Virus record (IMG/VR): IMGVR_UViG_3300025162_000019
Location: 138,826-189,489 of that record
Length of the DNA: 50,664 nt
Reading direction: 5' to 3' (one strand)
Source of the DNA: a virus
Positions 32,598-50,417 of this stretch are shown one piece after another. Position 1 is the first letter of the stretch. Each line of letters opens with the position of its first letter. Position numbers and translations under genes: made by a program. Under the pieces are notes generated by a model. That model searched no databases and had not been told where the DNA came from. It worked only from the letters and a program-made list of their open reading frames with translations.

Positions 32598-33131
32598 TTA
32601 AAATGTAACTCCTATCTCATATGAAGTCTTATCAATAACATGATAAATATATGAAAATGTAACCTGAACCTGTGCAACTTCACTTGCTGAATAATCTAAA
32701 TCAATAGTGCCAATAGACTTAGGCCATGCGCCAACTAATTTATATTTTATAGTTGTATTACCTTCATGGTCAAGTAGTTCTAATACCTGATCTGCCATAT
32801 AAGTGCTTGGTTTATTAGCCTTATTACTTGTTGGATCATGAATTAATCTAGCCCAATCATGAAGCGATTTAATAACATCAGATTCAGCATCAACATTAAA
32901 TGTAACTGTAAAATCAGAATAAGTATATTTTCCAGCAAACTTGAAATCAAATCCTTGCCAATTTGTTGTTATTTCTTCGGTAGTAGTTTCAGGTAAAGTA
33001 GTTGTTCTTACAAGATAAGTAAGTTTATCAACATTTGTAGTAATAGGAAAATTAGGCTTATAATAAAACAAATATTGTTTTGCTCCACCTTGAAATGACG
33101 CTCTATATGAATCTATGTTAAAATTAGGCAT
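32598..33131 (-). CDS. 19: tail tube protein (gp19-like), 177 aa
   Basis: Main tube protein candidate: short and compact like T4 gp19 (163 aa), with FNIDSYRASFQGGAKQYLFY at the start, FTVTFNVDAESDVIKSLHDW (about 85-104), AWPKSIGTIDLDYSASEVAQ and VQVTFSYIYH at the end. It follows the sheath gene as in T4, separated only by a homing endonuclease. Its ribosome site GGAGGG is inside the endonuclease's 3' end, and its ATG overlaps that gene by 8 bases. A strong terminator follows, as expected for a highly expressed gene. Confidence 0.85.
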   Translation of the reverse strand: MPNFNIDSYRASFQGGAKQYLFYYKPNFPITTNVDKLTYLVRTTTLPETTTEEITTNWQGFDFKFAGKYTYSDFTVTFNVDAESDVIKSLHDWARLIHDPTSNKANKPSTYMADQVLELLDHEGNTTIKYKLVGAWPKSIGTIDLDYSASEVAQVQVTFSYIYHVIDKTSYEIGVTF

Positions 33132-34008
33132 TCTTTATACCCTCCAAAATAAAATTGTCTATCTTATTAAAAATATTATATCTATCATTTATTAACTCTT
33201 GCTCTTTAATAACAAGTATATTTATACCTTTCTTAAAACATTGTTTCTTTTTCATTTCATCATGCCATTTTACTTTATCGTTATTATGCCAGTATTCACC
33301 ATTATATTCTATAGCTTTTTTCATTTCAGGTAGCCAAATATCAAGTTCTAAATTTTTACCTGTCCAGTAATTTTTAACTTGCATTCTATCATTTTCTAAA
33401 ATAATACCTGAATATATTGTTTTAACGTATTCAACTATTTTCTTTTCTGGCTTAGAACCACCACTTATATTTTTACACAATGGGCATCTTTGACCCTGTT
33501 GAAAATCATTATATCTCATTAAAAATTGGTGCCCTTTAATACATTGTAATCTTAATTTAGATTTATTAGCTATGTATTCATTAGATAATAATTTATAATC
33601 AAAACTTTCTATGTACTCTTTAATTTCATTTAATATTTTCTTAGGCGTACCAAAACATTCAGGGCACCTTTGACCCGTATAAAAATTACCATATCTCATT
33701 TTAAATAAATGACCTTCAGGGCATTGTAATTTTAATTTAGAAAGAGCATTAATATATTCAGTAGATAATAATTTATAGTCAAAACTTTCAATATATTCTT
33801 TAACCTTTTCTATTGTAAGTTTTTTATTGCCAGCACATTCTGGGCATCTATGACCTTGTTGAAAATCACCATATTTTATATTAAATATATGATTTTCAGA
33901 ACACTGCAATTTTAATTTAGCCCTGCTATCTATATAAACACTATTTAATAACTTATACCCATTATCTTCAACATATTTTTTTACATCGACATAATCCAAC
34001 TTTTTCAT
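33124..34008 (-). CDS. Vsr-like (EDxHD) homing endonuclease with three zinc-ribbon modules, 294 aa
   Basis: Free-standing homing endonuclease between sheath and tube genes. Three modules of about 58 residues (about 1-60, 60-118, 118-178) each have a YxLLS-x-EY helix part, a C-P-E-G-H-like pair and RCPEC closing pair, a zinc-ribbon presumably reading DNA. The catalytic domain (about 180-294) has KPEKKIVEYVKT, NLELDIWLPE, AIEYNGEYWH and KQCFKKGINILVIKE, matching Vsr-type phage endonucleases. It has its own promoter inside a long inverted repeat. Its 3' end carries the tube gene's ribosome site. Confidence 0.85.
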   Translation of the reverse strand: MKKLDYVDVKKYVEDNGYKLLNSVYIDSRAKLKLQCSENHIFNIKYGDFQQGHRCPECAGNKKLTIEKVKEYIESFDYKLLSTEYINALSKLKLQCPEGHLFKMRYGNFYTGQRCPECFGTPKKILNEIKEYIESFDYKLLSNEYIANKSKLRLQCIKGHQFLMRYNDFQQGQRCPLCKNISGGSKPEKKIVEYVKTIYSGIILENDRMQVKNYWTGKNLELDIWLPEMKKAIEYNGEYWHNNDKVKWHDEMKKKQCFKKGINILVIKEQELINDRYNIFNKIDNFILEGIKNA

Positions 34009-37258: not shown

Positions 37259-37906
37259 TTAATAGCCATAAATTTTAGTATCTACATCACTATATGTATC
37301 TATCGCCACACTTTGTTCTTCAATATATTCATTATCACCAAATGCTGTAATAGATGGCGTTTCTGTTGTAATATTTGATGAAACACCAGCAGCGGATTCT
37401 GATTCTTCTGAATATCTGAAAGGCTTTAAATTTAATACCCAAATCAAACTTTTTAGCATAAAAATTTTATCATCTTGAGCCACATGAAGAACTTCAAAAC
37501 TTCTACTAAAATATGGTATATAAATAGCATCTCCAACTAAAGGAATGGTAGAACTATTAGCAGAATCGGGGTCTGTAGGATCAACATCACGCCTATAAAC
37601 TGACTGTGGAATGTGTGCTATAATAGAATCTGTTGCTAACATACCAAACATAGAATATACAGTAGGAACATCGCCTACATCATAGATAATCTTTGTTTCT
37701 TTTCCTTCAAGGTACTCAGCATTCTGTGTTTCACCATATAGCTGATCAGGTGGTACAGATGGATCACGCCTATAATATGTGCATGCAATCCCAGTTATAT
37801 CAGTAAATTCAGCAACAAGAGATTCAGCTAACTGATGGTCTGGATTATCAGTTAGATCATATAGATTCCAAGTAGGCTTGTTTAGTGAATCCTGTGGCAA
37901 TCTCAT
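37259..37906 (-). CDS. 14: gp14-like neck protein, 215 aa
   Basis: Head-completion/neck protein. The features AESLVAEFTDITGIACTYYR (about 29-48), DQLYGETQNAEY, SMFGMLATDSIIA, PLVGDAIYIPYFSRSFEVLH and the closing KPFRYSEE follow the T4 gp14 pattern. The first 50 bases are overlapped by the 3' end of the GIY-YIG endonuclease gene, so that gene ends inside gp14. The neck gene appears intact. Confidence 0.8.
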   Translation of the reverse strand: MRLPQDSLNKPTWNLYDLTDNPDHQLAESLVAEFTDITGIACTYYRRDPSVPPDQLYGETQNAEYLEGKETKIIYDVGDVPTVYSMFGMLATDSIIAHIPQSVYRRDVDPTDPDSANSSTIPLVGDAIYIPYFSRSFEVLHVAQDDKIFMLKSLIWVLNLKPFRYSEESESAAGVSSNITTETPSITAFGDNEYIEEQSVAIDTYSDVDTKIYGY

Positions 37907-38759
37907 TTATTATCTCTATACTCCAACCATTATATTTTTTATTTCTCTTTAAATTATACGAAACAGTACTTCTATTAAGATTATTATCAACACAAAATTT
38001 TCTTAAACTATTTGTTATGTATTCAGTTCCTTCTGGTGATATAAACTTATACATATTCTTAACCATTTTTTCTCTTTGCTTTTCTTTTTGTTCATCGGTA
38101 ACAGGAACAGACTTTTTAACACCTATATGATTTTTGGACATTTTTTCTTTTATACTATCAGCCCGTTCTTTACCAAATCTATCTTCAAATGATTTATCTT
38201 TATTAGATTTATTATATTCACTAAAATTATAATTTACAACACCCTTTCTTTTTTCGCTGATTTTTTTTCTTACATCCAATCGTTTTGCTGGATTTTTATC
38301 ACCTAGCATATCAACCCTAATCTTACCATACATGGGGTTATTTTCACCAGAATTTAAAACACTTATTCTTTTACCCCATTCTTCTCTATATTCATCACTT
38401 ACATTAAGCCAATAGTTTTTATTACTTTCACTTATATTTTTTCGTGTATCTTCAGTAGGACACCAACCTAAGTTACCTTCGCCACCTAAAGTTAAATTAT
38501 AACCATTTGGCCTTTGTGTATTCAACTCTTTTATATAATATATTTCTCTTTCATTTAAATCATCTTTACTTAAACATTCACAAAGTATAGACCATTTAAA
38601 ATTCTCATTACCATATTTTCTTATTGCTCTATGTAAATAATAACTGCTATCATTTCTTACATCACATAAATGCTGTAATTTTCTTTTTTCTAAACTTTTT
38701 ACTGTTTGTCCAATATAACAACTACCATTTATTAGATTTTCAACTTTGTATATTAACAT
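37857..38759 (-). CDS. GIY-YIG homing endonuclease, 300 aa
   Basis: Catalytic GIY-YIG domain in residues 1-95: LIYKVENLINGSCYIGQT, the conserved arginine in LEKRKLQH and the metal-binding glutamate region LNEREIYYIKELNT. The C-terminal part has NUMOD-type helices (EDTRKNISESNKNYW, DVRKKISEKRKG, ADSIKEKMSKNHIG) and a final helix-turn-helix-like block (NSLRKFCVDNNLNRSTVSYN), as in I-TevI/Seg-type enzymes. It is inserted between gp13 and gp14 and overlaps gp14 by 50 bases. The start has GGGAGG and a late promoter close upstream. Confidence 0.9.
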   Translation of the reverse strand: MLIYKVENLINGSCYIGQTVKSLEKRKLQHLCDVRNDSSYYLHRAIRKYGNENFKWSILCECLSKDDLNEREIYYIKELNTQRPNGYNLTLGGEGNLGWCPTEDTRKNISESNKNYWLNVSDEYREEWGKRISVLNSGENNPMYGKIRVDMLGDKNPAKRLDVRKKISEKRKGVVNYNFSEYNKSNKDKSFEDRFGKERADSIKEKMSKNHIGVKKSVPVTDEQKEKQREKMVKNMYKFISPEGTEYITNSLRKFCVDNNLNRSTVSYNLKRNKKYNGWSIEIINEIATGFTKQAYLESI

Positions 38760-38817: not shown

Positions 38818-39594
38818 CTACCCTATGAGAAACCCAAGGCCCTCTGTCACCTCTTCCAATCGCAATTGTTCTTCTAATTTTTCCATTTCTGCCTGCCCTT
38901 CACTTATTAAAGAATCACCATCCATTGCCAATCCAGTATTACTACCTATTGCTGTAAAATTAGCAAACTTTGTTCTTATTCGTCCTAATGTCATTTTACA
39001 CATTGCTGTTGCATAATCTGTAAGCCACATATTATTATATAGATCATCAGGTTCGCCTTCTGCCATATACGCTCTAACTAAAATAAAGCCAGGTGTTTCA
39101 TATGTAATATCATTAATTGTTAATTGACCACCATAAGGCGGTGTAGGTTTTATTTCTAGTTGATTAGTATATTGATGGTATATAAAACTATAAGCATCAA
39201 CTACATATCTTTTTATTGTTTCTAAAAATCCTCTTGCTATATGATAAGAAACCATATCATAACCAGAACCAGCACTTCTCATCAACAACTGATCATACAT
39301 ACCCTGATTGTATAAATAATTTTCTATTGTAAATAATGTATGAATAGAACCAGCTGATTGAGTACTATACCCTATGACTTCAGTTATATTCGCTGGCATA
39401 TCATAAAAGGCTTCACCAGCTGACAGCATTAGAGTAAAAAACACTTCCTGCGTTGCTTGACCCACAGCCCATTTTATATACTTTGTTCTTGCATAGTCTA
39501 TAGCATCATTAATTTGCATTGGATCAAGTTCTATCTTTACAACAGGGGCGCCCAATCTGCGTTTAATCTTTTCGACCATATCAGATTTTTTCAT
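38818..39594 (-). CDS. 13: gp13-like neck protein, 258 aa
   Basis: Neck protein that joins head and tail. The N-terminus MVEKIKRRLGAPVVKIELDP, with ALDYAR-like INDAIDYARTKYIKWAVGQA, and the C-terminal LTDYATAMCKMTLGRIRTKF followed by SLISEGQAEMEKLEEQLR are typical of the gp13 family. Length is below T4 gp13 (309 aa). It follows TerL by 50 bases and has a late promoter in that gap. The GIY-YIG gene follows. Confidence 0.75.
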   Translation of the reverse strand: MKKSDMVEKIKRRLGAPVVKIELDPMQINDAIDYARTKYIKWAVGQATQEVFFTLMLSAGEAFYDMPANITEVIGYSTQSAGSIHTLFTIENYLYNQGMYDQLLMRSAGSGYDMVSYHIARGFLETIKRYVVDAYSFIYHQYTNQLEIKPTPPYGGQLTINDITYETPGFILVRAYMAEGEPDDLYNNMWLTDYATAMCKMTLGRIRTKFANFTAIGSNTGLAMDGDSLISEGQAEMEKLEEQLRLEEVTEGLGFLIG

Positions 39595-39628: not shown

Positions 39629-39636
39629 TATTTATA
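39629..39636 (-). promoter_or_regulatory. late promoter TATAAATA upstream of gp13
   Basis: Exact late box on the minus strand 35 bases before the gp13 ATG, in the gap after TerL. It would let neck genes be transcribed independently of the hairpin-controlled TerL. Confidence 0.65.
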
Positions 39637-39643
39637 TATTATT

Positions 39644-41200
39644 TTAATTGATGTTATAATCCTGCAGCCAACTGAAGTCATCATCAGTTTCAGTAGATAC
39701 ATCACTCAAAAATCCCCATACTTCTTCTTCACTATTGTTATTGACAGGTTTAGAATCCATTAGATCATAATCATCTATAATGTTCATCTCTACAAAATAA
39801 CAAGCCCAATACAATGCAGAAACTAAATCATCTGGTAAATCCTTCCCCATAAAACGACCATTTGATTCAATAAAAGAACCTAACTGATATACTGTATCCT
39901 TATCATATATATCTACGCACTTATCTTCTATCAGTTTTTTCATTAATAGAACAGCTCTAGGTTTTGTATTTTTACTAGCTCTAATACCTAAGTCTGCATT
40001 TTTACTTCCAGTATTTACTAAGTTAGAGTTCTCAAATTCCCACCATAGTCTATTCACAACAGCAGAACCTTCTGAGTTATTTTCACACATAATATAAGCA
40101 TTGTTATAATAGTATGATAATCTATTTATAATCTCTGCGAACAAATAAACATCTGTCTGATTATCATTATATACGGCAACTTGTTGATACTTCAATGGTG
40201 TTAAACTTATAATCTTCATGATCTGTAATGTAGAAGCATTTTCACCAGTTCCTTTAGCAGTATCAGCACCAATAATATACTGTGCACCAGCTTCAGGTTC
40301 TTCATAAACAGAATACTTATTACCCATTTCTGTTTTTATAGGTTCTCTAACATTATCAAATAGGTATTCAAGTGTAACAGGGTCTATAACTGTATTTGTA
40401 GAACCTAAAAACTCACAGGCATATTCCTGAGTAAACTTTACCTTACCTAAGTTCTTTAATTGCTCTTGCGCCCAAGCCTCATCACGGCCAGGCACTTCTC
40501 TCCAAGTAACACGAATATGTTTAAATGTATTCTCTCCACGCTCTGCTTGACTGTATATCCTATGAAATAGATTGAACACTCCATTAGGTGTTGAAATAAG
40601 AATAATCTTTGCATCCTCAGAAGCTGAAATGGTCGGATAGTTGGCTGCCCAAAAATCTTCACATATACCTTTAGGAACGAATGCTATTTCATCACATATA
40701 AGTAAGTTGATTGTTCTACCACGGAAAGCATCAGGAGAAGTTGCGGATACTATTATTCTTGTACCATTATCAAATAAAATAAAAGTCTTAGAATATTCAC
40801 GGACACCCGGCTTTAACCATATTGGTAGCTCTTCATACATCAATTTAATTCTACTCATAATATCTATAGCTGATGTCTGCTTATTAGATACTATACCGAT
40901 TGTTTTATCAGAATTAAAGATTGAAAACCACAAAGCATAGACTGAAACAACAGTAGTTTTTCCAGCTTGTCTTGCGCATAGAGCACAAACAAATCTATTG
41001 TCTGCCATTTTTTTAAGAATTGTTTTTTGAAAGGAATAGGGTTCAAATTCAATTCGGCCCCTATCAGGATGGACAATCTTTATATATTGTAAAAAATTGT
41101 TTATATTTGTCGAACAATTTAATAAGGCTCTTACATCTTCAGGCTTATATTCAAACTGCTCCTCTGGCCTCTTCACATAATCATTATACTTAATACCCAT
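39644..41200 (-). CDS. 17: terminase large subunit (gp17-like), 518 aa
   Basis: DNA-packaging motor ATPase and nuclease. Walker A is CARQAGKTT (75-83), Walker B LLICDEIAF (167-174) and the coupling motif STPNG (about 203). The RNase-H-like nuclease contains GADTAKGTGENAS with Asp313, and later CENNSEGSAV and LPDDLVSALYWA. Slightly shorter than T4 gp17 (610 aa). Its ribosome site AGGAGG (41209-41214) is buried in a perfect 12-bp hairpin directly before the ATG. SpoVR lies just upstream rather than TerS. Confidence 0.95.
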   Translation of the reverse strand: MGIKYNDYVKRPEEQFEYKPEDVRALLNCSTNINNFLQYIKIVHPDRGRIEFEPYSFQKTILKKMADNRFVCALCARQAGKTTVVSVYALWFSIFNSDKTIGIVSNKQTSAIDIMSRIKLMYEELPIWLKPGVREYSKTFILFDNGTRIIVSATSPDAFRGRTINLLICDEIAFVPKGICEDFWAANYPTISASEDAKIILISTPNGVFNLFHRIYSQAERGENTFKHIRVTWREVPGRDEAWAQEQLKNLGKVKFTQEYACEFLGSTNTVIDPVTLEYLFDNVREPIKTEMGNKYSVYEEPEAGAQYIIGADTAKGTGENASTLQIMKIISLTPLKYQQVAVYNDNQTDVYLFAEIINRLSYYYNNAYIMCENNSEGSAVVNRLWWEFENSNLVNTGSKNADLGIRASKNTKPRAVLLMKKLIEDKCVDIYDKDTVYQLGSFIESNGRFMGKDLPDDLVSALYWACYFVEMNIIDDYDLMDSKPVNNNSEEEVWGFLSDVSTETDDDFSWLQDYNIN

Positions 41201-41205
41201 AAAAA

Positions 41206-41240
41206 AATCCTCCTAAACTATTTAGTTATTTAGGAGGATT
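41206..41240 (-). promoter_or_regulatory. 12-bp hairpin hiding the TerL ribosome site, followed by a U-run
   Basis: Arms 41229-41240 (AATCCTCCTAAA on the minus strand) and 41206-41217 (TTTAGGAGGATT), loop 11 bases, no mismatch. The 3' arm contains the AGGAGG of TerL. Five further U residues separate it from the ATG, so it also has the form of an intrinsic terminator after SpoVR. A near-late box TATAAATC lies at 41259-41266. Confidence 0.85.
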
Positions 41241-41267: not shown

Positions 41268-42800
41268 TTAACTCTTTTTTGGCGGCCTTATAGTTGGGTT
41301 TGTGTCTATTTTTACTTCATATCTTTTATCGCCTATTGTAGTAGAAAGAACTACTGGTCTACCCCAAAGAGTATAAATATGCTCTAAAGTTTTTACTGTA
41401 TTTAACTTATCCAACTCAATACCAGAAAAATCATGAGATAAATATAATGAGCCATCAAAATGATGATTTCCATCTATTATATTTATTTTGGGAATACCAC
41501 TATTAGAAAAACTATTTACAATCAGTTCCCTAATCTGAGCTGCTGTATGATCTGTTCTAACATAGTCTACAGTATTTGCATAATCTGCACTTGGGACTTC
41601 AGTATAAATATACATATCCAACTTATCAATGACATCTTCTGTAAGAAAATCCTGCATAAAGAACCAATCTGTATATGTTCTCATTACATCCTTACACTTT
41701 TCAAAGCCACCCATTTCCTTTGTATCCCACTCTTCTTTTAACTTGTAATCACTACATTCCATATATTCTTTACCATGACGACCTTTATCCCATCTTTCCT
41801 CAATATGCTCCCACATACCAGAGCCAATAAGATACGGATTCATACTATATCTACTCATAGCTTTTACAAGTGAGTTGGAATAGTTATACTGCCCATGCTC
41901 TTCTGCTGTTAATAGTTCTTCATCAAATAGTTTATTCATAATCTTCTGATGAATGAATGTAGCCCAACCCTCATTCATATACCTTGACCTCATAATAGGC
42001 CAATAATACTGACCCTCAATTCTCAAGATTTCAAGAATGTCCTTCTGCCAATCTTCTAAAATGCGTGAGTTATCAATAATAAATCTAAGCAAATCTTCAG
42101 TAGGCTCAACAGGAATCTGCTGTTTCAGTTCTCTCCATAAACGATTATTCATTAAATCAATAGACGCATCGTCAACAAAAGCATCAACAGATTTATGGGT
42201 ATCTGTTAAATCACCAAAAGAAGATAGATTAGTAATCTTCCTTTTTTCTTTCATCTGATCAAATACACGCAACCTTTTTTCTTCTTCTGTTTCATTATCA
42301 AAAGGACTTGAATGAAACTGAATAGAATGCGCTGCATCTACAATCTTTTCAACCTCACCAATACCATACATTCTTTCGTATTCATTAAATCGTTTAGAAC
42401 CTTCCCTCATAACACTCATTATATCATTACGATTATTGATAAACCATTTACTTTCCGTAAAGAAATTTGTATGGCCATAAACATGGGCAATAACCAATGC
42501 CTGTACTGCCAATGTATTACTATCCATTAAGTATGCTCTTGCAGGATTATCATGTATTACAACTTCATATGGTAGACTATCACCATATAAATCATAAAGT
42601 GTTTTATTCTTCTCATAATCTCGCCCATACTTCCAGTTAGATATATTTGTAGGAAGTCTATATGCCATAATCTCAAGCATCCTCTGAGGTGGGATAACAT
42701 CAAACTCTACATCAACACTTTTCAACTTCATATCATCAAAAAGTATTTGTTTAATCCTGTCCTCAATTTTAATAAGTCTTTGTAAATTACCCTTTTCCAT
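41268..42800 (-). CDS. SpoVR family protein, 510 aa
   Basis: Homologue of Bacillus SpoVR and E. coli YcgB. Recognised blocks: YEVVIHDNPARAYLMDSNTL and VIAHVYGHTNFFTESKWF (about 98-140), YYWPIMRSRYMNEGWATFIH, EEHGQYNYSNSLVKAMSRYS, NPYLIGSGMWEHIEERWDKG and HFDGSLYLSHDFSG. Its length equals bacterial SpoVR (about 470-510 aa). In bacteria it is co-regulated with YeaG/PrkA and YeaH; its biochemical activity is not settled. Here it follows YeaH with a homing endonuclease between them, whose 3' end (AAAGGATG) provides its ribosome site, and its ATG overlaps the endonuclease stop. Confidence 0.93.
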   Translation of the reverse strand: MEKGNLQRLIKIEDRIKQILFDDMKLKSVDVEFDVIPPQRMLEIMAYRLPTNISNWKYGRDYEKNKTLYDLYGDSLPYEVVIHDNPARAYLMDSNTLAVQALVIAHVYGHTNFFTESKWFINNRNDIMSVMREGSKRFNEYERMYGIGEVEKIVDAAHSIQFHSSPFDNETEEEKRLRVFDQMKEKRKITNLSSFGDLTDTHKSVDAFVDDASIDLMNNRLWRELKQQIPVEPTEDLLRFIIDNSRILEDWQKDILEILRIEGQYYWPIMRSRYMNEGWATFIHQKIMNKLFDEELLTAEEHGQYNYSNSLVKAMSRYSMNPYLIGSGMWEHIEERWDKGRHGKEYMECSDYKLKEEWDTKEMGGFEKCKDVMRTYTDWFFMQDFLTEDVIDKLDMYIYTEVPSADYANTVDYVRTDHTAAQIRELIVNSFSNSGIPKINIIDGNHHFDGSLYLSHDFSGIELDKLNTVKTLEHIYTLWGRPVVLSTTIGDKRYEVKIDTNPTIRPPKKS

Positions 42801-43711
42801 TATGACATCCTTTCTATTAAATCGTTTATTTTATTTAAATAACATACCTTATCATCATACCAATCTTGCTCTTTGATAACTAATAAATCTATATTTTTCT
42901 TTATACATTGTTTCTTCTTCATTTCGTCATACCATTTTGACTTATCACTAGAATGCCAATATTCACCATTAAACTCTATTGCTTTTCTTACATCAGGTAA
43001 AAATATATCCAATTCAAGATTTTTACCCGTCCAATAGTTTTTTACTTGTGTTCTATCATTTTCTAAAATAGTACCCGAATAAATAGTTTTGACATATTCA
43101 GCAATTTCTTTTTCTGGTTTAGACCATCCTTTAACTAGAGCACATTCAGGGCATCCGCAATTTTGATTTTTAAAACGTCTAAAATACATTTTAAAAATAT
43201 GTCCTTCAGGGCATTTCAACTCTAATATAGATGAATTGTTTTTATACTTGCCTGACAGCCACACATAATTTCTATCTTTAATATATTGCATAACATCTAT
43301 TAATGATGCTCTTTGTATGATGCTTCTTCTTTTATTAAAACATTCCAAACATCTATGTCCTTGCTGAAAGTCATTAAATCTTTTTTTAAATATATGACCT
43401 TCAGGACATTGTAGTTCTAATATAGAAAAGGCATTTATATATTCACCAGATAACCATTTAAAGCTAAAATCTTCTATACGATTTTTAACATTAATATATT
43501 CTAATCTTTGACTATTACCTCTCATTTTATTATTACATTCAGGGCATCTATAACCTCTTTGAAAAACATTATATATTACTTTATAAATATGACCTTTTGG
43601 GCATTGTAGTTCTAATTTTTCTTTACTATTTTTGTATTCAGTAGATAGAAGTTTATAGTTGAAACTTTCTATATAACTTTTAACTTCTTCTAATGTATAC
43701 TTCCTATTCAT
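42800..43711 (-). CDS. Vsr-like homing endonuclease with three zinc-ribbon modules, 303 aa
   Basis: Paralog of the endonuclease at 33124-34008, inserted between YeaH and SpoVR. Three modules (about 1-58, 65-125, 130-190) carry the YKLLSTEY or WLSGEY helix and the CPEGH...CPEC pairs. The catalytic part has KPEKEIAEYVKT, NLELDIFLPD, AIEFNGEYWH and KQCIKKNIDLLVIKE. It overlaps YeaH's stop at its start (TAATG) and SpoVR's start at its end. Part of it is nearly identical in DNA to the fragment at the right window edge. Confidence 0.88.
   Translation of the reverse strand: MNRKYTLEEVKSYIESFNYKLLSTEYKNSKEKLELQCPKGHIYKVIYNVFQRGYRCPECNNKMRGNSQRLEYINVKNRIEDFSFKWLSGEYINAFSILELQCPEGHIFKKRFNDFQQGHRCLECFNKRRSIIQRASLIDVMQYIKDRNYVWLSGKYKNNSSILELKCPEGHIFKMYFRRFKNQNCGCPECALVKGWSKPEKEIAEYVKTIYSGTILENDRTQVKNYWTGKNLELDIFLPDVRKAIEFNGEYWHSSDKSKWYDEMKKKQCIKKNIDLLVIKEQDWYDDKVCYLNKINDLIERMS
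42901..43020 (-). repeat. 120-bp segment nearly identical to 50503-50622 (endonuclease catalytic region)
   Basis: Direct comparison shows one difference in 120 bases between the two endonuclease catalytic regions. The other copies (33124-34008, 48236-48943) are clearly more diverged. This points to recent duplication or gene conversion. Confidence 0.9.
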
Positions 43712-45054
43712 TATGCCTTCCTTTCAAACAAAATATGCTTAATTGCACTATAAATATGGGATTTATTTCTAATCTCACACATCACAAAATGATTAGCGTC
43801 ATCCTTATAGAAGTTCGTGCCATTTTCCGTAGTCATAGCAAATTTAAATGTCTTAATATATTCCTTTAACAATGTATTTGGCGACCATCCGGCTCCATAA
43901 ACAGGACTAAATGAATTATCCTCATCTTCAACACCATTTACTTCGCAATAAGCTAACATATTCACACTCTTATTTAACATTTCCTTTGTTGATTTCATTG
44001 TTCTATCAAAGTTAAAATCTTCACCATCAGATGCGTAGATTACATATCTATTCCATGCTTCTTCAGGGTATTCAGTATCTAATGCGTAGTTAGCCAAATC
44101 AAATGCTGTATGGCAGTTAGTTCCGCCAGATTCACCCTTCTTAAAAAATTCGTCCTCAGAGACAAACTGAGCCTCTGTAGTATGAGTAATAAACCTAATC
44201 ACAACATTATCATATGACTTCTTCAAAAACTCATTTATCCAAAACAATAATGACCTTACAAGATACTTCTTATTACTATCCATAGAACCTGATGTATCAA
44301 TCATTGCGATAATAACGCAGTTAGATAGTGGTGTCATCTGTTCTTCTGGTACTCTAAACCTTAAATCATCATCTTCGATATACAACTGCTCTGGATCAAT
44401 AGAACGATCCAATATATTATTCTTTATGATTAAAATAGCTTCTTCCAAATCGCCAAAAGATTGAACCAATGCCTGTGAAGCCTCTGTTTCAGTACAACCA
44501 GTATCTTCCATTATTTCTTTAATGAAAAGGCTAGTTCGTAACATTGTTTCTTTTAAAGTCTTTTTCTTATGTAGTCTAGGCTGAATACCTATCTTAGATG
44601 TAGTTTCAAACTTCCAGCCAGTAGGAACTAGCATACTTTTATCAGATGTTTTTTCTTCAATGTATGGTAGACCCAAGTCCTCAAACATTAACTGAATGAT
44701 TTGTTCAATATCAATTTCAGTTTCCATATAATCTTCACCCATCTGATCACCTGGCTCATCACTACCACCGTCACTCTTTACTTTCCTTCTACCGATTACA
44801 TCACCTGGCTTTCCTTCACCTTGTCCCACACCGCCAGAACCTTCGTCATTTCTACCATAGACAAAACGATAGTCCTTAAGACCCTTAATAGGAACCTTTA
44901 CTTTACCATTCTTTCCTTTAGTAATAATGGATTCTTCACCAATAATGTCCTTAACTTGGCCTCTAATAACAGCATCAACTTTTTGTCTATGCCTTTCAGC
45001 ATCCTTTTTTCCTTTCTCAGAAAACTGCCAATCACCATCAGCTACTATTGTCAT
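43711..45054 (-). CDS. yeaH: YeaH-like DUF444 protein with vWA domain, 447 aa
   Basis: Homologue of E. coli YeaH, partner of the PrkA/YeaG kinase. The N-terminus FSEKGKKDAERHRQKVDAVI and the Gly-rich segment (about 70-105) are typical. IDIEQIIQLMFEDLGLPYIE (about 114-133) matches the DUF444 core. The vWA domain holds a metal site DTSGS (Asp253), ITHTTEAQFVSEDEFFKKGE and GGTNCHTAFD. A UBA-like helical stretch (about 183-212) lies between core and vWA domain. It has its own perfect sigma-70 promoter, spanning the end of the HNH gene, and GAGG before the ATG. Confidence 0.9.
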   Translation of the reverse strand: MTIVADGDWQFSEKGKKDAERHRQKVDAVIRGQVKDIIGEESIITKGKNGKVKVPIKGLKDYRFVYGRNDEGSGGVGQGEGKPGDVIGRRKVKSDGGSDEPGDQMGEDYMETEIDIEQIIQLMFEDLGLPYIEEKTSDKSMLVPTGWKFETTSKIGIQPRLHKKKTLKETMLRTSLFIKEIMEDTGCTETEASQALVQSFGDLEEAILIIKNNILDRSIDPEQLYIEDDDLRFRVPEEQMTPLSNCVIIAMIDTSGSMDSNKKYLVRSLLFWINEFLKKSYDNVVIRFITHTTEAQFVSEDEFFKKGESGGTNCHTAFDLANYALDTEYPEEAWNRYVIYASDGEDFNFDRTMKSTKEMLNKSVNMLAYCEVNGVEDEDNSFSPVYGAGWSPNTLLKEYIKTFKFAMTTENGTNFYKDDANHFVMCEIRNKSHIYSAIKHILFERKA

Positions 45055-45082
45055 ATGAATCCTCTTTTCTATATTTTAAGTT

Positions 45083-45111
45083 ATTATATCATATAACTTG
45101 TTATTTGTCAA
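45083..45111 (-). promoter_or_regulatory. consensus sigma-70 promoter for the YeaH gene
   Basis: TTGACA at 45106-45111, a 17-base spacer and TATAAT at 45083-45088, minus strand, both exact. The -35 box lies over the last codons (Ile-Asp-Lys-stop) of the HNH gene. It restores independent transcription of YeaH-endonuclease-SpoVR downstream of the HNH insertion. Confidence 0.85.
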
Positions 45112-45736
45112 TAACCAATTTTTCCAAATATTCGTTAAACATACTCTCATAATCTTCTTCATGCTTTTTTATAGAATAATGGCAGTTTTCACATAAAGTC
45201 ACACCATTATTTTTATTATATATTAAATCTCTATATAATGCAAATCTTTTAATATGGTGTGCTTGTAACTTATATCCTCTTTCATTACACATAACACAAG
45301 TATAGTTATCCCTTTCAAATACAGATGTTCTCCATTCCTTATATTCTTTAGAACAATATATCTTAGTATTTTCTGAAGTTATACCACCCTTCCAATTACC
45401 ATTTAATTCACCTATTCTTTTTGAACTATTTAATGCACATTTTGCTTTGAAATCATCATTCATTTTTTTACCTAAATTTGCTTGACTGATTTTCTTAGCA
45501 GTTTCTTCCGATATACCATACATTGCATTTCTTTTTTTAGCATTACACGAAAAAGAACAACAACAACCTTTATTACCACTACAATAAAAAAACTTTTCAC
45601 CACATACTTCACAAGGAGCATCACTTAAAATATATACAGTCATTCTCCAAGGATTTTCAGCTGTCGGATTATCTTTATACCATTTACCTGTTTTTTCATT
45701 AAATCTTAATACTTTTAATCCTTCTTCATACTTCAT
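45101..45736 (-). CDS. HNH homing endonuclease, 211 aa
   Basis: Free-standing HNH endonuclease between PrkA and YeaH. N-terminal Cys-rich finger (CEVCGEKFFYCSGNKGCCCS, about 39-58), NUMOD-like helix (SEETAKKISQANLGKK), then the HNH site CVMCNERGYKLQAHHIKRFA and NNGVTLCENCHYSIKKHEED near the C-terminus, with zinc-binding CxxC pairs. I chose ATG 45736, which has GGAGGT 10 bases upstream; the longer frame would begin at a TTG inside that ribosome site. The site is in a hairpin with a late promoter (see next feature). Confidence 0.9.
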   Translation of the reverse strand: MKYEEGLKVLRFNEKTGKWYKDNPTAENPWRMTVYILSDAPCEVCGEKFFYCSGNKGCCCSFSCNAKKRNAMYGISEETAKKISQANLGKKMNDDFKAKCALNSSKRIGELNGNWKGGITSENTKIYCSKEYKEWRTSVFERDNYTCVMCNERGYKLQAHHIKRFALYRDLIYNKNNGVTLCENCHYSIKKHEEDYESMFNEYLEKLVIDK

Positions 45737-45742
45737 AAATAA

Positions 45743-45782
45743 AAATACCTCCAATAAAATTTCCTTACTGAAGGTATTTATA
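45743..45782 (-). promoter_or_regulatory. ribosome-site hairpin with embedded late promoter before the HNH gene
   Basis: On the minus strand AAATACCTTC (45770-45779) pairs with GGAGGTATTT (45743-45752): 10 bp with one G-U, 17-base loop. The entire GGAGGT site is in the 3' arm. TATAAATA at 45775-45782 overlaps the 5' arm, so late transcripts starting near 45769 would lack that arm and be translatable, while early read-through RNA would be silenced. T4 I-TevI is regulated in this way. Confidence 0.8.
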
Positions 45783-45826
45783 TATTTCCTTTGTTGGGGA
45801 AACTATGTTGATTTTTCCGTACTATA

Positions 45827-47782
45827 TCACTCCTTGCGCAAAATTTCTCCAACGAAACTTAACAGGATTTTGGCACATTCCTCACAATAGCCATTCTTCT
45901 TCAATCGTTCAATAACAGTAGTCCTACGAGCTTTAGACTTCAAATCTGTACTAGACTTGTCTGCGATTGTCAAACTTACAACATTCTTCAAATCGGACAT
46001 AAGTTTCTTCTCAATAGCTGTTCTCAACGGGTCATAGTCTTTGAAAGTAAACTCCTTACCTCTTTCAAGCTGAGAAGATTTATACACGAAAATACCCTGT
46101 CTAAACTCTGTCTTAGCATTTACTGGAACACTGATAAACTCTTCAATCTGCCTCATCAACTTTTCATCAGGGTCGGAATACTCGCCGGTAATAGAATCCA
46201 TTACCTTCTCTTTCTTACAATAAGCCGAAGCGTTTAACAAATAGTTATCAAACAAAGATTGTGCCTGCTCTTCATATGCCGACATAAAAGACATATTTAC
46301 TTCTTTCTTTGCAATCTCTTTATACTCAGAGCTTACAGACTCTTTTTCAGAAAGTAAAAGATTAATAAAACGCTTCCTATCTTCTTCAGAAATACCAATG
46401 TGATGATCAAAGTTGGACTTCAAACCTCTAATAATATCAATAGGATTAATACATTTCTTATCCTCTTTCATACCAAGAGAAATGTTAATGGCGTTAATAA
46501 TAAATCTCGGAGAAATACCACTCATGCCTTCACCCTTCTCACGGCCTTCCTGTAGAAGTTGTTTAACATCAAGATTCTGCTTCCTCATTTCTTCAGTAAT
46601 CTCACCATTATAAATCTTCATCTTATCCAATAGAGAGTTTACCTTAGCTGTGGGAATAAGGCGAGAAAGAATAGCAAACTGTGCCGCAACCCTTAATGTA
46701 TTAGGTGCGATATGAATACCTCTAAAAGAAGATTCACCAATCATCTTTTCATAAATCTTAACCTCATCATCAATTTTAAGATTCCAAGGAACCATTACAG
46801 GATACATTCTATCATGTAGTGCTTCATTCTTCTTATCAGACTTAAATGTATCAAACTCTGTCTGGTTAGTATGACTCAAAACCAAAGTATCAATATACAT
46901 CTGAGGAAAGCCTGGTGTTTTAATAAGTTGTTCCTGTGCTACTGTAATAAATACATACAGAAGTTTAGTATCAACTTTAATCATTTCAATCATTTCAATC
47001 ATACCACCATTAGCTACCTGCAACTCACCATTAAACTGATATGCTCTTGGGTCTGTTTCACCATAACGAGTAATCTTAGAAAGATTTACTCTACCAATAA
47101 GTTCGGAAATATCCTGACTCTTAGGATCGGAAGGTGAAAATGTTGCAATACCAACACGGTCATGCTCAGATAATGCAATCTTCTCTACCAAAACATTTTC
47201 CCATTGTACATTGCCATCTTCAGACATATAGTTTGCTTCAATATTCTGTTTGCATACAGGACATAATGTTCCTTCAATCTGAACACCTAGTTCCTTTTCC
47301 CAATATGGCCTATCAACTTCAGGAATCAAATGTAATGGTTCCTCATGAATTGGGCAATCCTTAATTGCGTACTTAGGTGTCTTATCTCTTTCCAAACCCT
47401 TTTTAATCAAGGAAGCGATTGTTGATTTACCAGAACTAACTGGGCCAACCATGATCAAAATACGTTTTCCTGTTTCTGTTCTATGAGAGGCTGCTTTCAA
47501 GAAACGCATCAAATCATGAATAGGCTCAAGAGTACCATAAATCTTCTTATCAAAAAACTTATAACGAACCAAATCTTCATAACTTCTTGTCTTGAATGCA
47601 TCATCAACAGGTTCTGTGCCATAAGACATGATCATATTATAAATACGACCCGGCGCAAATTGTGCGATATAAGGATTTTCTTTTACAAAATTAAAGTAAT
47701 CAAGACAAGTGCCTTCCCATTTATTGTTTTCCTTTTTACTTCTCTGCTCAAGAATCACATTCCTAAAATCAACATTATTCAT
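45827..47782 (-). CDS. prkA: PrkA family serine protein kinase (AAA+), 651 aa
   Basis: Homologue of bacterial PrkA/YeaG (E. coli 644 aa). The AAA+ region contains RILIMVGPVSSGKSTIASLI with Walker A GPVSSGKST (113-121). Also seen are CPIHEEPLHLIPEV, CPVC, and DRVGIATFSPSDPKSQDISE followed by LIGRVNLSKITRYGETDPRA, all strongly conserved in the family. The C-terminal PrkA domain carries the kinase-like region (GISPRFIINAINISL, then FIS-like helices). ATG 47782 was chosen for its GAAGGAGAGAAAG ribosome site; an upstream TTG would overlap that site. The start overlaps the gp16-like gene's end. HNH and YeaH follow. Confidence 0.95.
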   Translation of the reverse strand: MNNVDFRNVILEQRSKKENNKWEGTCLDYFNFVKENPYIAQFAPGRIYNMIMSYGTEPVDDAFKTRSYEDLVRYKFFDKKIYGTLEPIHDLMRFLKAASHRTETGKRILIMVGPVSSGKSTIASLIKKGLERDKTPKYAIKDCPIHEEPLHLIPEVDRPYWEKELGVQIEGTLCPVCKQNIEANYMSEDGNVQWENVLVEKIALSEHDRVGIATFSPSDPKSQDISELIGRVNLSKITRYGETDPRAYQFNGELQVANGGMIEMIEMIKVDTKLLYVFITVAQEQLIKTPGFPQMYIDTLVLSHTNQTEFDTFKSDKKNEALHDRMYPVMVPWNLKIDDEVKIYEKMIGESSFRGIHIAPNTLRVAAQFAILSRLIPTAKVNSLLDKMKIYNGEITEEMRKQNLDVKQLLQEGREKGEGMSGISPRFIINAINISLGMKEDKKCINPIDIIRGLKSNFDHHIGISEEDRKRFINLLLSEKESVSSEYKEIAKKEVNMSFMSAYEEQAQSLFDNYLLNASAYCKKEKVMDSITGEYSDPDEKLMRQIEEFISVPVNAKTEFRQGIFVYKSSQLERGKEFTFKDYDPLRTAIEKKLMSDLKNVVSLTIADKSSTDLKSKARRTTVIERLKKNGYCEECAKILLSFVGEILRKE

Positions 47783-48248
47783 CTTTCTCTCCTTCAATTA
47801 GTTTAGCATCTATTAATTTTTTATCAACTTTTAACATTCTTAATATTGTTTCTCTATCTGTTACAATAATATTTTGATTTCTCACACCAGTATTCTTATC
47901 TAAGATTTTTAATTTCACTAGTGTTTCTTTTTCTTTTAATTCTAACATTTTTTCTTTCAAAAGTAAATCACAATTTTGCGTATTTTTTTTATTTATAATT
48001 TCAACCGCCGAATTAATATTTGCTACCATATAACTGGCAACTTCTACTAATCGTGCAGAGAACCCGCCTGAACCCATTTCAGATAATATTTGATCTAATA
48101 TCTGATTAGCCTTTGATATATTTTTTTCCATTATATCATTTGGATTATTCACATCTACATCATTTGTTTGTGGTATACTATCATCAGGATTAAGTCTAAA
48201 ATCCATACCAAACTCATCTGCTAAATTCTCTCTATCTAAATCAGGCAT
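47775..48248 (-). CDS. 16: probable terminase small subunit (gp16-like), 157 aa
   Basis: The layout fits T4 gp16: acidic, disordered N-terminus (ENLADEFGMDFRLNPDDSIP), a helical core (MEKNISKANQILDQILSEMG, then SARLVEVASYMVANINSAVE, LLLKEKMLELKEKETLVKLK) and a short tail with NIIVTDRETILRMLKVD. The 157 aa match T4 gp16 (164 aa). Its start overlaps the endonuclease upstream, which supplies AGGTGT as ribosome site, and its end overlaps PrkA. The call rests on helical pattern and presence of TerL downstream, so it is moderately certain. If right, PrkA, YeaH and SpoVR lie between TerS and TerL. Confidence 0.6.
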   Translation of the reverse strand: MPDLDRENLADEFGMDFRLNPDDSIPQTNDVDVNNPNDIMEKNISKANQILDQILSEMGSGGFSARLVEVASYMVANINSAVEIINKKNTQNCDLLLKEKMLELKEKETLVKLKILDKNTGVRNQNIIVTDRETILRMLKVDKKLIDAKLIEGEKDE

Positions 48249-48943
48249 CTTACACCTATTAACTCATTTATTTTGTTTAAACAACATAACTTATCATTAT
48301 ACCAATCTTTATCTTCTATAACTAATAAATTAATACCCTTTTGTATGCATTGCTTTTGTTTCATTTCATCATACCATTTAGTTGTATCGTTTGAATGCCA
48401 CCATGTTCCATTAAACTCTATTGCTTTAGAAAGTTCAGGTAAAAATATATCTAATTCAAGATTTTTACCAGTCCAAAAGTTCTTAATTTGTGTTCTGTCA
48501 TTTTCTACAACATCACCAGAATAATTCTCTTTAACATATTCAGCAATTTCCTTTTCTGGCTTAGACCATTTTAATACTGACGAACATTCAGGGCATCTTC
48601 TCCCTTGTTGAAAATGATTATATGATGCTTTATATATATGGTTTTCTGAACATTGCAATTCTAATTTATCTTTACTACTTTTATAAATAGTTGATAATAA
48701 TTTATATCCATTACATTCTATATATTCTTTAACACTTTTATATTCTAAATATTTACTATTACTATAACATTCAGGGCATCTATTTCCTCTTTGAAAATTA
48801 TTATATCTCATTTCAAATACATGACCGACAGAACATAATATTCTTAATTTAGTCAAAGCATTTTTATATTCTGTTGATAAAAGTTTATACTTATAACTTT
48901 CAATATCTTTTTTAACATAATCTATTAAATGCTTTCTATTCAC
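48236..48943 (-). CDS. Vsr-like homing endonuclease with two zinc-ribbon modules, 235 aa
   Basis: Shorter paralog of the endonucleases at 33124 and 42800: two modules (about 1-60 and 62-122) instead of three, then KPEKEIAEYVKE, NLELDIFLPE, AIEFNGTWWH and KQCIQKGINLLVIEDKDWYN. GTG start at 48943 with AGAGGT upstream; a consensus sigma-70 promoter precedes it. Its 3' end (LNKINELIGVRCLI) overlaps the gp16-like start and is the sequence preserved in the scar at 3940-4005. Confidence 0.88.
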   Translation of the reverse strand: MNRKHLIDYVKKDIESYKYKLLSTEYKNALTKLRILCSVGHVFEMRYNNFQRGNRCPECYSNSKYLEYKSVKEYIECNGYKLLSTIYKSSKDKLELQCSENHIYKASYNHFQQGRRCPECSSVLKWSKPEKEIAEYVKENYSGDVVENDRTQIKNFWTGKNLELDIFLPELSKAIEFNGTWWHSNDTTKWYDEMKQKQCIQKGINLLVIEDKDWYNDKLCCLNKINELIGVRCLI

Positions 48944-48968: not shown

Positions 48969-48997
48969 ATTATACCTTATATTTATACAAATGTCAA
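48969..48997 (-). promoter_or_regulatory. consensus sigma-70 promoter, with a TATAAATA in the spacer
   Basis: TTGACA at 48992-48997, a 17-base spacer and TATAAT at 48969-48974, all exact, minus strand. A late box TATAAATA at 48980-48987 lies inside the spacer. It drives the endonuclease and probably TerS and PrkA downstream, giving both early and late transcription. Confidence 0.85.
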
Positions 48998-49001
48998 GTA
49001 T

Positions 49002-50417
49002 TTATTTCATTACAAATTTTATATTACCACAATCATAGATTCTATCCCAACCTTGTTCTTGCATTATATCCCATTCAGTTTGAGTATCTTGTGTAGCTAA
49101 ATGCCTTATCTTATCTTTCCTAAAATTAAAACGATGTATTCTCTTTAGCACATCATACTTAAAATACCAATAATTAGGTTCAGTTAAACTCACTTGTGTA
49201 AATCCAATTTTAGAATACACATTACCTTCCGACCACCGCCTATCAGCATATGAATAAATTTCAACCCAACAATAATTTCTCTTAAAAAATTCTAATAACT
49301 TACCAGCAATGCCTATTATACTTTTAGATGTACAAAATCTACTTAATTCCCATACACCATCGACATTTTTAGACCCTTTTGATATATTACCTCTAGCAAA
49401 AGTCATTACAGAAACAAGTTCATCATTATAGTATGCACCTAATTTTATAGATGATGGTGTATAACCCTGTATATGGTATAATTCAATAAAAGACTTTGCT
49501 ATAGTTGTTTCTATTTCTCTTATAATGCACTTCCTTGCGTAAAGTTTTTCATCTGATAAACCTATTATATGCTTTAATCTGTCCTTTACAATATCATTTT
49601 TAAATAACCATTCATCTTCAAAAATAGTTATTAATCTATATCCCTGTTCATTACATAGTTCCAATTTTTTAAGATGATATTTTTTATCTGGCTTCTTTAA
49701 ATTACCATGCCAATATAAACCACAATATTCTATAGCGATTTTTTTATCTGGTATTACTATATCTAGTTCTAAAGGTCTTATTATTTTTCTATCATTACAT
49801 ATAATACTTAAATTAAAAGTTTGTATATATTCTAATATTTCTTTTTCAGCATTAGAAATTGACATAGAGCATTCATAACATCTATGCCCCTGCTTAAAAT
49901 CATTCCAAATCTGCCATCTATCATGCCCATTATTACAAATATATCTAACTTTAAAATTTTCACCTTTTATATTTCCACTTTTTTCTATATATTCATAATC
50001 AGCATCTTTTAAAGCATTTATAATATCATTTTCTTTTGTAGATGAACTAATGGACTTTTTTAATCTCGTATCTTCATTTTTCATGGGGTTATTAATACTT
50101 AAATTTAATTTTCTTTCTATATTACCAGACCATGATTTTTTTGTAGCGGACGAAATTTTTTCACTCATACTTTCTCTATATTCATTATCAGCCCATCGCA
50201 ACTTAGATGAGATAGATTGTTTTTCTTTTACATCTTCTCTATTAGCTGTATGTCTGTTTCTACATGGCCTGCAAAAATGGCCATCATTCTGTTTTAAATA
50301 TATTCTATACTGCTGTTGAACTTCAATACCACAAATATCGCAGTTAAAAATAATTTCCTTATGACTCCCACTCTTTAATAAAGATACATCACCATTGTCT
50401 ACTCTTCTTATTAGCAT
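49002..50417 (-). CDS. chimeric homing endonuclease: zinc finger, NUMOD, Vsr-like nuclease and GNAT-like domain, 471 aa
   Basis: Order of parts: N-terminal zinc finger (CDICGIEVQQQYRIYLKQND...CRPC, about 26-57), NUMOD3-like helices (EKQSISSKLRWADNEYRES, MSEKISSATKKSW, about 68-125), a zinc-ribbon (CNNGHDRWQIWNDFKQGHRC), the Vsr-like nuclease (PLELDIVIPDKKIAIEYCGL YWHG split around residues 215-240, and GYRLITIFEDEW), then a C-terminal domain (about 310-440) with IKLGAYYNDELVSVMTFARG, WELSRFCTS and YSYADRRWSEGNVYSKIGF. The last part resembles GNAT/Mom-type folds found fused to phage endonucleases; its role is unknown. The start overlaps the previous endonuclease's stop. Confidence 0.75.
   Translation of the reverse strand: MLIRRVDNGDVSLLKSGSHKEIIFNCDICGIEVQQQYRIYLKQNDGHFCRPCRNRHTANREDVKEKQSISSKLRWADNEYRESMSEKISSATKKSWSGNIERKLNLSINNPMKNEDTRLKKSISSSTKENDIINALKDADYEYIEKSGNIKGENFKVRYICNNGHDRWQIWNDFKQGHRCYECSMSISNAEKEILEYIQTFNLSIICNDRKIIRPLELDIVIPDKKIAIEYCGLYWHGNLKKPDKKYHLKKLELCNEQGYRLITIFEDEWLFKNDIVKDRLKHIIGLSDEKLYARKCIIREIETTIAKSFIELYHIQGYTPSSIKLGAYYNDELVSVMTFARGNISKGSKNVDGVWELSRFCTSKSIIGIAGKLLEFFKRNYCWVEIYSYADRRWSEGNVYSKIGFTQVSLTEPNYWYFKYDVLKRIHRFNFRKDKIRHLATQDTQTEWDIMQEQGWDRIYDCGNIKFVMK

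Follow-up and report, generated by a model that had tools for sequence, protein, structure and literature searches.

A PrkA-YeaH-SpoVR operon kept between the terminase genes of a T4-type phage clade has early-type promoter signals separate from those of TerL

A 50,664-nucleotide window of viral DNA, the final 50.7 kb of the 189,489-bp record IMGVR_UViG_3300025162_000019, was analyzed with a focus on a triad of genes, PrkA, YeaH, and SpoVR, that lies between the terminase subunit genes of a T4-type phage. The window also has T4-type structural and DNA-metabolism genes, including those for tail sheath, tail tube, UvsX-like, and SbcC-like proteins. Genes of the locus are on the minus strand in the order homing endonuclease, TerS, PrkA, HNH endonuclease, YeaH, second endonuclease, SpoVR, TerL, and head-tail adaptor. 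The first endonuclease (48236..48943; DUF4379/CapR zinc finger with an MTES_1575-type nuclease; phrog_559, E 3e-45) is inserted 5' of TerS, a 157-aa gp16-like terminase small subunit (47775..48248). PrkA (45827..47782) is an AAA+ ATPase with a PrkA C-terminal domain; it is 651 aa long when read from the ATG at 47782, which lies inside the TerS gene (8-bp overlap) and is the most likely start, rather than the TTG at 47797. YeaH (43711..45054) is a 447-aa DUF444 protein with a vWA/MIDAS domain and a UBA/TS-N-like insert at about residues 178–214 (44413..44523). SpoVR (41268..42800) is 510 aa long, with HxxGH and EGxA motifs and a C-terminal SpoVR_C domain. An HNH homing endonuclease identified by family matches (45101..45736) sits at the PrkA/YeaH junction, and an endonuclease of the CapR/DUF4379 and MTES_1575 type (42800..43711) sits at the YeaH/SpoVR junction, with stop/start overlaps on both sides. 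Downstream are a hairpin (41206..41240), the 518-aa T4-type terminase large subunit TerL (39644..41200; PF03237/PF17289), and the adjoining head-tail adaptor (38818..39594; phrog_211).

All three triad proteins have full-length Pfam matches: PrkA to PF08298 (E 2.5e-107) and PF06798 (E 6.9e-70), YeaH to DUF444 (E 1e-82), and SpoVR to PF04293 (E 6.2e-93) and SpoVR_C. Residues 22–649 of PrkA match a solved PrkA structure (PDB 9xip, E 9e-127), for which a literature search found no paper. The PrkA Walker A motif (GPxxxGKS), the complete YeaH MIDAS (D253xS255xS257/T312/D343), and the SpoVR residues H106xxG109H110 and E277G278xA280 are invariant across phage homologs. In domains, Walker A, MIDAS, SpoVR motifs, and gene order, the triad is a PrkA-DUF444-SpoVR operon with intervening homing endonucleases. 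The original prediction, made from the letters of the window alone, had described full-length homologs with intact key motifs, which is confirmed, and had placed them in a row, which is correct for their order and incorrect for strict adjacency. An AlphaFold2 model of SpoVR has a pLDDT of 84, and a fold search of the PDB with this model returned nothing credible. SpoVR does not have the hallmarks of a zincin-type metalloprotease: no PDB fold matched, and its HxxGH motif is without the Glu of HExxH.

The identity of the small gene is supported by its relatives. The window protein alone had no Pfam or PHROG match. A 9-member profile had T4-type TerS structures (3txq/3txs) as its best, though weak, PDB matches (E 0.11), and members matched the PHROG terminase small subunit families phrog_445 (7/9) and phrog_735 (4/9) with a best E value of 4e-5. 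Because of the 3txq/3txs and phrog_445 matches, assignment as a gp16-like TerS is well supported by sequence comparison. Its AlphaFold2 model is a low-confidence helical hairpin, with which a PDB fold search gave only long-helix matches of no diagnostic value. TerL carries the Terminase_6N/6C domains of a T4-type terminase, so the predicted flanking of the triad by a gp16-like gene and TerL is borne out.

Relatives of the locus were collected from IMG/VR using alignment-based scans in place of a single-protein TerL scan, which had yielded few. The scans identified 78 window-type PrkA loci, reduced to 52 by clustering at 90%. TerS is immediately 5' of PrkA in 48 of the 51 loci with enough sequence (gaps of −14 to 154 bp), and all 42 loci that extend far enough downstream show the order PrkA-YeaH-SpoVR-TerL. 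In one group (L218), SpoVR is missing from the vicinity. Three members (L018, L201, and L225) have the triad without TerS or TerL within 10 kb; their records are partial and yielded no TerL. These relocated triads sit amid nucleotide-metabolism genes or between Hsp20/Map/PAS and Rad52/Clp genes. In L201 and L225, a small conserved protein (~105 aa; e.g., L201:9690-10007) overlaps the PrkA start, with Hsp20, methionine aminopeptidase, and PAS genes ahead of it.

A survey anchored on TerL found triad genes upstream in 62 loci and TerS with TerL but no triad in four (L100, L101, L121, and L123). No PrkA was found in the records of these triad-free phages, which are fragments, so that absence is not proof. 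In three of the four, the TerS-TerL interval codes for a lytic transglycosylase (L100 and L121) or a lipoprotein and a deoxynucleoside monophosphate (dNMP) kinase (L101). Because other genes lie between TerS and TerL in triad-free relatives, the interval is, judged by gene content, apparently a variable cargo slot that is filled by the triad in the window clade. The L100 interval (L100:5494-9933) contains three repeated ~200-aa proteins, possibly ADP-ribosyltransferase-like, along with a P-loop kinase-like protein, a nucleotidyltransferase-like fragment, and the lytic transglycosylase-like protein. A gene for a dNMP kinase or kinase-like protein turns up repeatedly in unrelated phages, either next to the triad or in a TerS-TerL slot that lacks it (L101:9432-9929, L018:9211-9744, and L001:11825-12403).

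Triads are also carried by Thermus phages and by four ~600-kb phages, with PrkA identities of 27%–37%. Like the window, the Thermus phages phiYS40, TMA, phiLo, MN1, and Lalka and the Ralstonia jumbo phage RsoM2USA have PrkA, SpoVR, and a vWA/DUF444 gene; SpoVR is ORF28 and PrkA is ORF30 in RsoM2USA (PMC8504454). They differ from the window clade in gene order and in having a YeaH without the UBA-like insert, and Thermus phage PrkA is ~30%–37% identical with a separate place in the PrkA tree. Where a record had a terminase domain, by search or annotation, TerL lies tens to hundreds of kb from the triad in the huge phages, in MN1, in two IMG/VR records from the 37% group, and in one from the 28% group. 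It is ~4 kb away in YS40, and TerL and portal genes adjoin the triad in Lalka phages. Since most distant phages hold TerL far away, the packaging position seems to be a feature of the window clade and not of phage triads generally. Placement between TerS and TerL, which the original prediction had proposed to survey, is thus near-universal in the window clade and does not extend to phage triads at large. The packaging link, set beforehand as refutable, stood in that the small gene is TerS; it gave way in the three clade members with no terminase within 10 kb and in the distant phages with a remote TerL. Enterobacter phage LAU1 was rejected as an independent example, since its YeaG/YeaH genes are at the extreme end of the record and look like host flank.

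Two types of promoter signal were identified at the locus. Perfect host-type sigma70 sites (TTGACA-N17-TATAAT), an early type, occur three times in the window against 0.15 expected, and two are on the coding strand at the triad locus: one upstream of the endonuclease-TerS-PrkA run (48969..48997) and one 28 nt ahead of the YeaH start (45083..45111). Early-type sites of the same flavor are dense at 40–80 kb of the genome, and TATAAATA before genes is most common in the window. The latter motif is enriched there (34 versus 19.4 expected, with 34 reached in 0 of 100 shuffles), consistent with T4-type late promoters. It is found 37 nt ahead of the endonuclease gene preceding TerS (48980..48987) and ahead of the HNH endonuclease (45775..45782), and a late motif lies ahead of the adaptor gene (39629..39636), all on the minus strand.

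The same division was recovered across the clade. Sigma70 sites scoring at least 11/12 precede TerS in 10 of 46 loci, PrkA in 9 of 52, and YeaH in 4 of 50 (0.1–0.3 expected), and there are none before SpoVR, TerL, or the adaptor. TerS and PrkA are 55 bp or more apart in 17 loci, and 14 of these have a site scoring at least 10/12 in the gap. Endonuclease insertion alone was dropped as a source of the early promoters because of these 14 gaps; at 154 bp or less, gaps are too short for an endonuclease gene. The TATAAATA motif precedes TerS in 21 of 46 loci and TerL in 27 of 44 (~1.1 expected each), the adaptor in 7 of 29 (~1 expected), and is directly before PrkA, YeaH, or SpoVR in 0 of 150.

The hairpin ahead of TerL provides a second line of separation. 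In the window, its 3' arm contains the TerL Shine-Dalgarno sequence (AATCCTCCTAAA/TTTAGGAGGATT), and only near-matches to the late motif are upstream. Hairpins with a 3' arm over the TerL Shine-Dalgarno are present in 15 of 44 loci (2.4 expected), many with TATAAATA in the loop or the 5' arm; for all other genes the count is close to chance or lower. The predicted accessibility of this site (mean unpaired) is 0.24 in read-through RNA versus 0.42 with shuffled upstream sequence (P = 3.6e-6), and it increases from 0.16 in read-through RNA to 0.51 in the predicted late RNA (P = 1.7e-5). Values for TerS, PrkA, YeaH, SpoVR, and the adaptor are at the shuffled level. TerL therefore has, at the clade level, two elements of T4-type late control, a late motif and a ribosome-site hairpin opened by a late start. 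Enrichment of TATAAATA before TerS, TerL, and the adaptor is likewise T4-like. Ribosome-site hairpins in the T4 genes e and soc follow the same logic, whereas the window clade applies the hairpin to TerL. The early/late split and a hairpin that hides the ribosome site of TerL alone on read-through RNA both speak against the original proposal that the triad is timed with the packaging genes.

Values of dN/dS (nonsynonymous to synonymous substitution) for the triad are mostly 0.02–0.18 in close pairs, similar to TerL, and 0.24 in one deep pair, pointing strongly to purifying selection on all three genes. Distance-matrix (Mantel) correlations are 0.78–0.81 within the triad, 0.82 between TerS and TerL, and 0.48–0.75 for triad versus terminase. 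Since correlations are higher within each set than across them, the triad and terminase appear to be two partly separate units side by side. Inteins favor conserved active sites. Related phages have in-frame inteins in PrkA (between SDPK and SQD, and at AHS/TNQTE), the YeaH MIDAS (between GE and SGGT), and the TerL Walker A motif, and four have SpoVR inteins between NEGxA and TYxH (intein-bearing records L019:7991-11293, L230, L242, L243, L201:12444-15080, L231, L145, and L181). Given this preference, the inteins independently point to a probable function for the SpoVR EGxAxxxH motif.

Phylogenetic analysis of PrkA, using a quick tree with some long branches, placed the window phages in one clade (support 100) sister to PrkA from Thermodesulfobacteriota, Spirochaetota, and Fibrobacterota (support 98), to which window PrkA is 56%–59% identical. 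The Thermus phages and other phage groups are placed elsewhere in the tree, which indicates that phages probably acquired the triad several separate times. The nearest bacterial loci fetched have the identical order PrkA-YeaH-SpoVR. The sister placement is backed by the UBA/TS-N-like insert, which is common to both groups; it was present in all 112 window-type phage YeaH loci (counted without dereplication) and all 18 sister bacteria that could be tested, and in none of 13 other phages. A profile of the insert matches solved UBA-type domains, including 1wj7 (6e-8), the archaeal NAC-like 1tr8 (1.6e-6), and E. coli EF-Ts 1efu (1.7e-6).

RavA-ViaA is an example of the MoxR-type remodelling pairs, in which, as in the triad, an AAA+ ATPase is encoded beside a MIDAS vWA protein. 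The triad differs from these pairs in that PrkA belongs to a different AAA+ family and SpoVR is a third partner. The same three families form the cellular prkA-yeaH(DUF444)-spoVR operon, known from E. coli (yeaG-yeaH and ycgB), Rhizobium etli (the prkA operon), and a haloarchaeal cluster, and the phage gene order is that of the bacterial relatives fetched. The phage version differs in lying between terminase subunits, in being split by homing endonucleases, and in its phage-type early promoters and UBA-insert YeaH. The starvation and stationary-phase link of the bacterial operon, noted in the original prediction, is supported (PMC3188799, PMC4664914): growth arrest and (p)ppGpp induce the three genes (PMC3188799), and nitrogen-starved cells require YeaG (PMC4664914).

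Family matches place at least five homing-type endonuclease genes (GIY-YIG, HNH, and DUF4379/MTES_1575) in the structural region of the window (33124-34008, 37857-38759, 42800-43711, 45101-45736, and 48236-48943), two of them exactly at triad gene junctions, and a related zinc-finger/nuclease-like open reading frame is at 49002-50417. A 973-aa protein of unusual make-up (12259-15180) has repeated matches to virion-structural PHROGs and an HNH-like stretch. An Rfam scan for introns gave none at threshold.

On balance, the triad is probably a host-derived PrkA-YeaH-SpoVR operon that has been inherited as a single unit between TerS and TerL and that acts on the host cell as an early-expressed protein-remodelling module. 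Synthesis of the module would begin early in infection and continue later from the late promoter of TerS. PrkA would form a ring that uses ATP to remodel or unfold a target. YeaH would serve as the MIDAS/vWA adaptor of this ring, the UBA/TS-N-like domain being a putative docking site. SpoVR would be the effector, acting through its HxxGH...EGxAxxxH site, which is possibly metal-binding. The RNA hairpin would keep TerL from being translated on early read-through RNA. If the bacterial starvation/(p)ppGpp operon is a guide, the most likely job of the triad would be to manage host growth state or proteostasis, keeping slow or starved hosts productive. A direct part of the triad in packing DNA is unlikely.

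Several points weigh against this interpretation. The promoters are consensus matches, and most loci are without a strict sigma70 match. Late motifs are also ahead of TerS, so PrkA should be made late too. The TerL hairpin is present in triad-free L100, which has other cargo, and would therefore protect TerL from early read-through generally and not from the triad specifically. The SpoVR model, with its putative metal site, matches no solved fold. The tight and old linkage to TerS and TerL itself hints at a packaging role, and Lalka phages hold the triad beside TerL independently.

These last points lead to a rather unlikely alternative, in which the triad serves packaging or morphogenesis: PrkA/YeaH would remodel terminase, portal, or prohead proteins, SpoVR would process one of them, and the genes would for this reason be locked between TerS and TerL. 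Its position is deeply conserved with TerS-PrkA overlap in many phages, late motifs occur 5' of TerS, and the Lalka adjacency to both TerL and portal, with the ~4-kb distance in YS40, would fit. A packaging factor is difficult to reconcile with the relocated triads of L018, L201, and L225, with sister phages that have both terminase genes and no triad, and with the remote TerL of most distant phages. The partly separate evolution of triad and terminase and the separation of expression by early promoters and the TerL hairpin also argue against it.

We regard as speculative a reading in which the triad is an early anti-dormancy machine. The EF-Ts-like UBA domain of YeaH would dock on a translation factor (EF-Tu, for example) or another hibernation target, and the PrkA ring and SpoVR would remodel that target, reactivating or holding the starved host so that it produces phage. 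If so, the UBA-type triads of sediment bacteria would work likewise.

It is improbable that PrkA is a serine/threonine kinase that acts on host or virion proteins and is modulated by YeaH and SpoVR. PrkA has historically been annotated as a serine protein kinase in bacteria and Thermus phages, and the C-terminal PF06798 domain is intact in the window. However, purified Bacillus anthracis PrkA had no kinase or protease activity, and its negligible kinase activity was attributed to a P-loop missing from the "kinase" domain (PMC13001217). The conserved part of phage PrkA is the AAA+ core, and the earlier suggestion that PrkA phosphorylates host or virion proteins is correspondingly weak. Equally doubtful is the stress-state controller expressed late along with the packaging genes, as first proposed. 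The triad is collinear with both terminase genes, and TerS and the HNH endonuclease gene are preceded by late motifs, but sigma70 promoters are at TerS, PrkA, and YeaH and not at TerL, and TATAAATA is never directly before a triad gene. Passenger cargo, a host operon of little benefit caught by a mobile-element-rich TerS-TerL hot spot, would fit an interval into which homing endonucleases and inteins have moved and where L100, L101, and L121 carry different cargo, but it is largely refuted and very improbable given strong purifying selection on all three genes (dN/dS well below 1) kept across deep divergence.

Phage PrkA and SpoVR genes and the cellular triad were already known (PMC8504454, PMC3102087, PMC3188799). 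A search of open-access literature found no description of a conserved TerS-triad-TerL locus, of the early/late split, or of a UBA-like insert in DUF444 proteins; the locus, its control, and the YeaH insert appear to be new. PrkA-YeaH-SpoVR is a bacterial and archaeal operon, and a large phage clade keeps the whole unit under purifying selection, with control signals split from those of the neighboring packaging gene. Judged by the inteins, likely critical positions are in PrkA, the YeaH MIDAS, and the SpoVR EGxA site. The phage triads are compact, testable systems, and the UBA-like insert of YeaH offers a specific handle for target finding.

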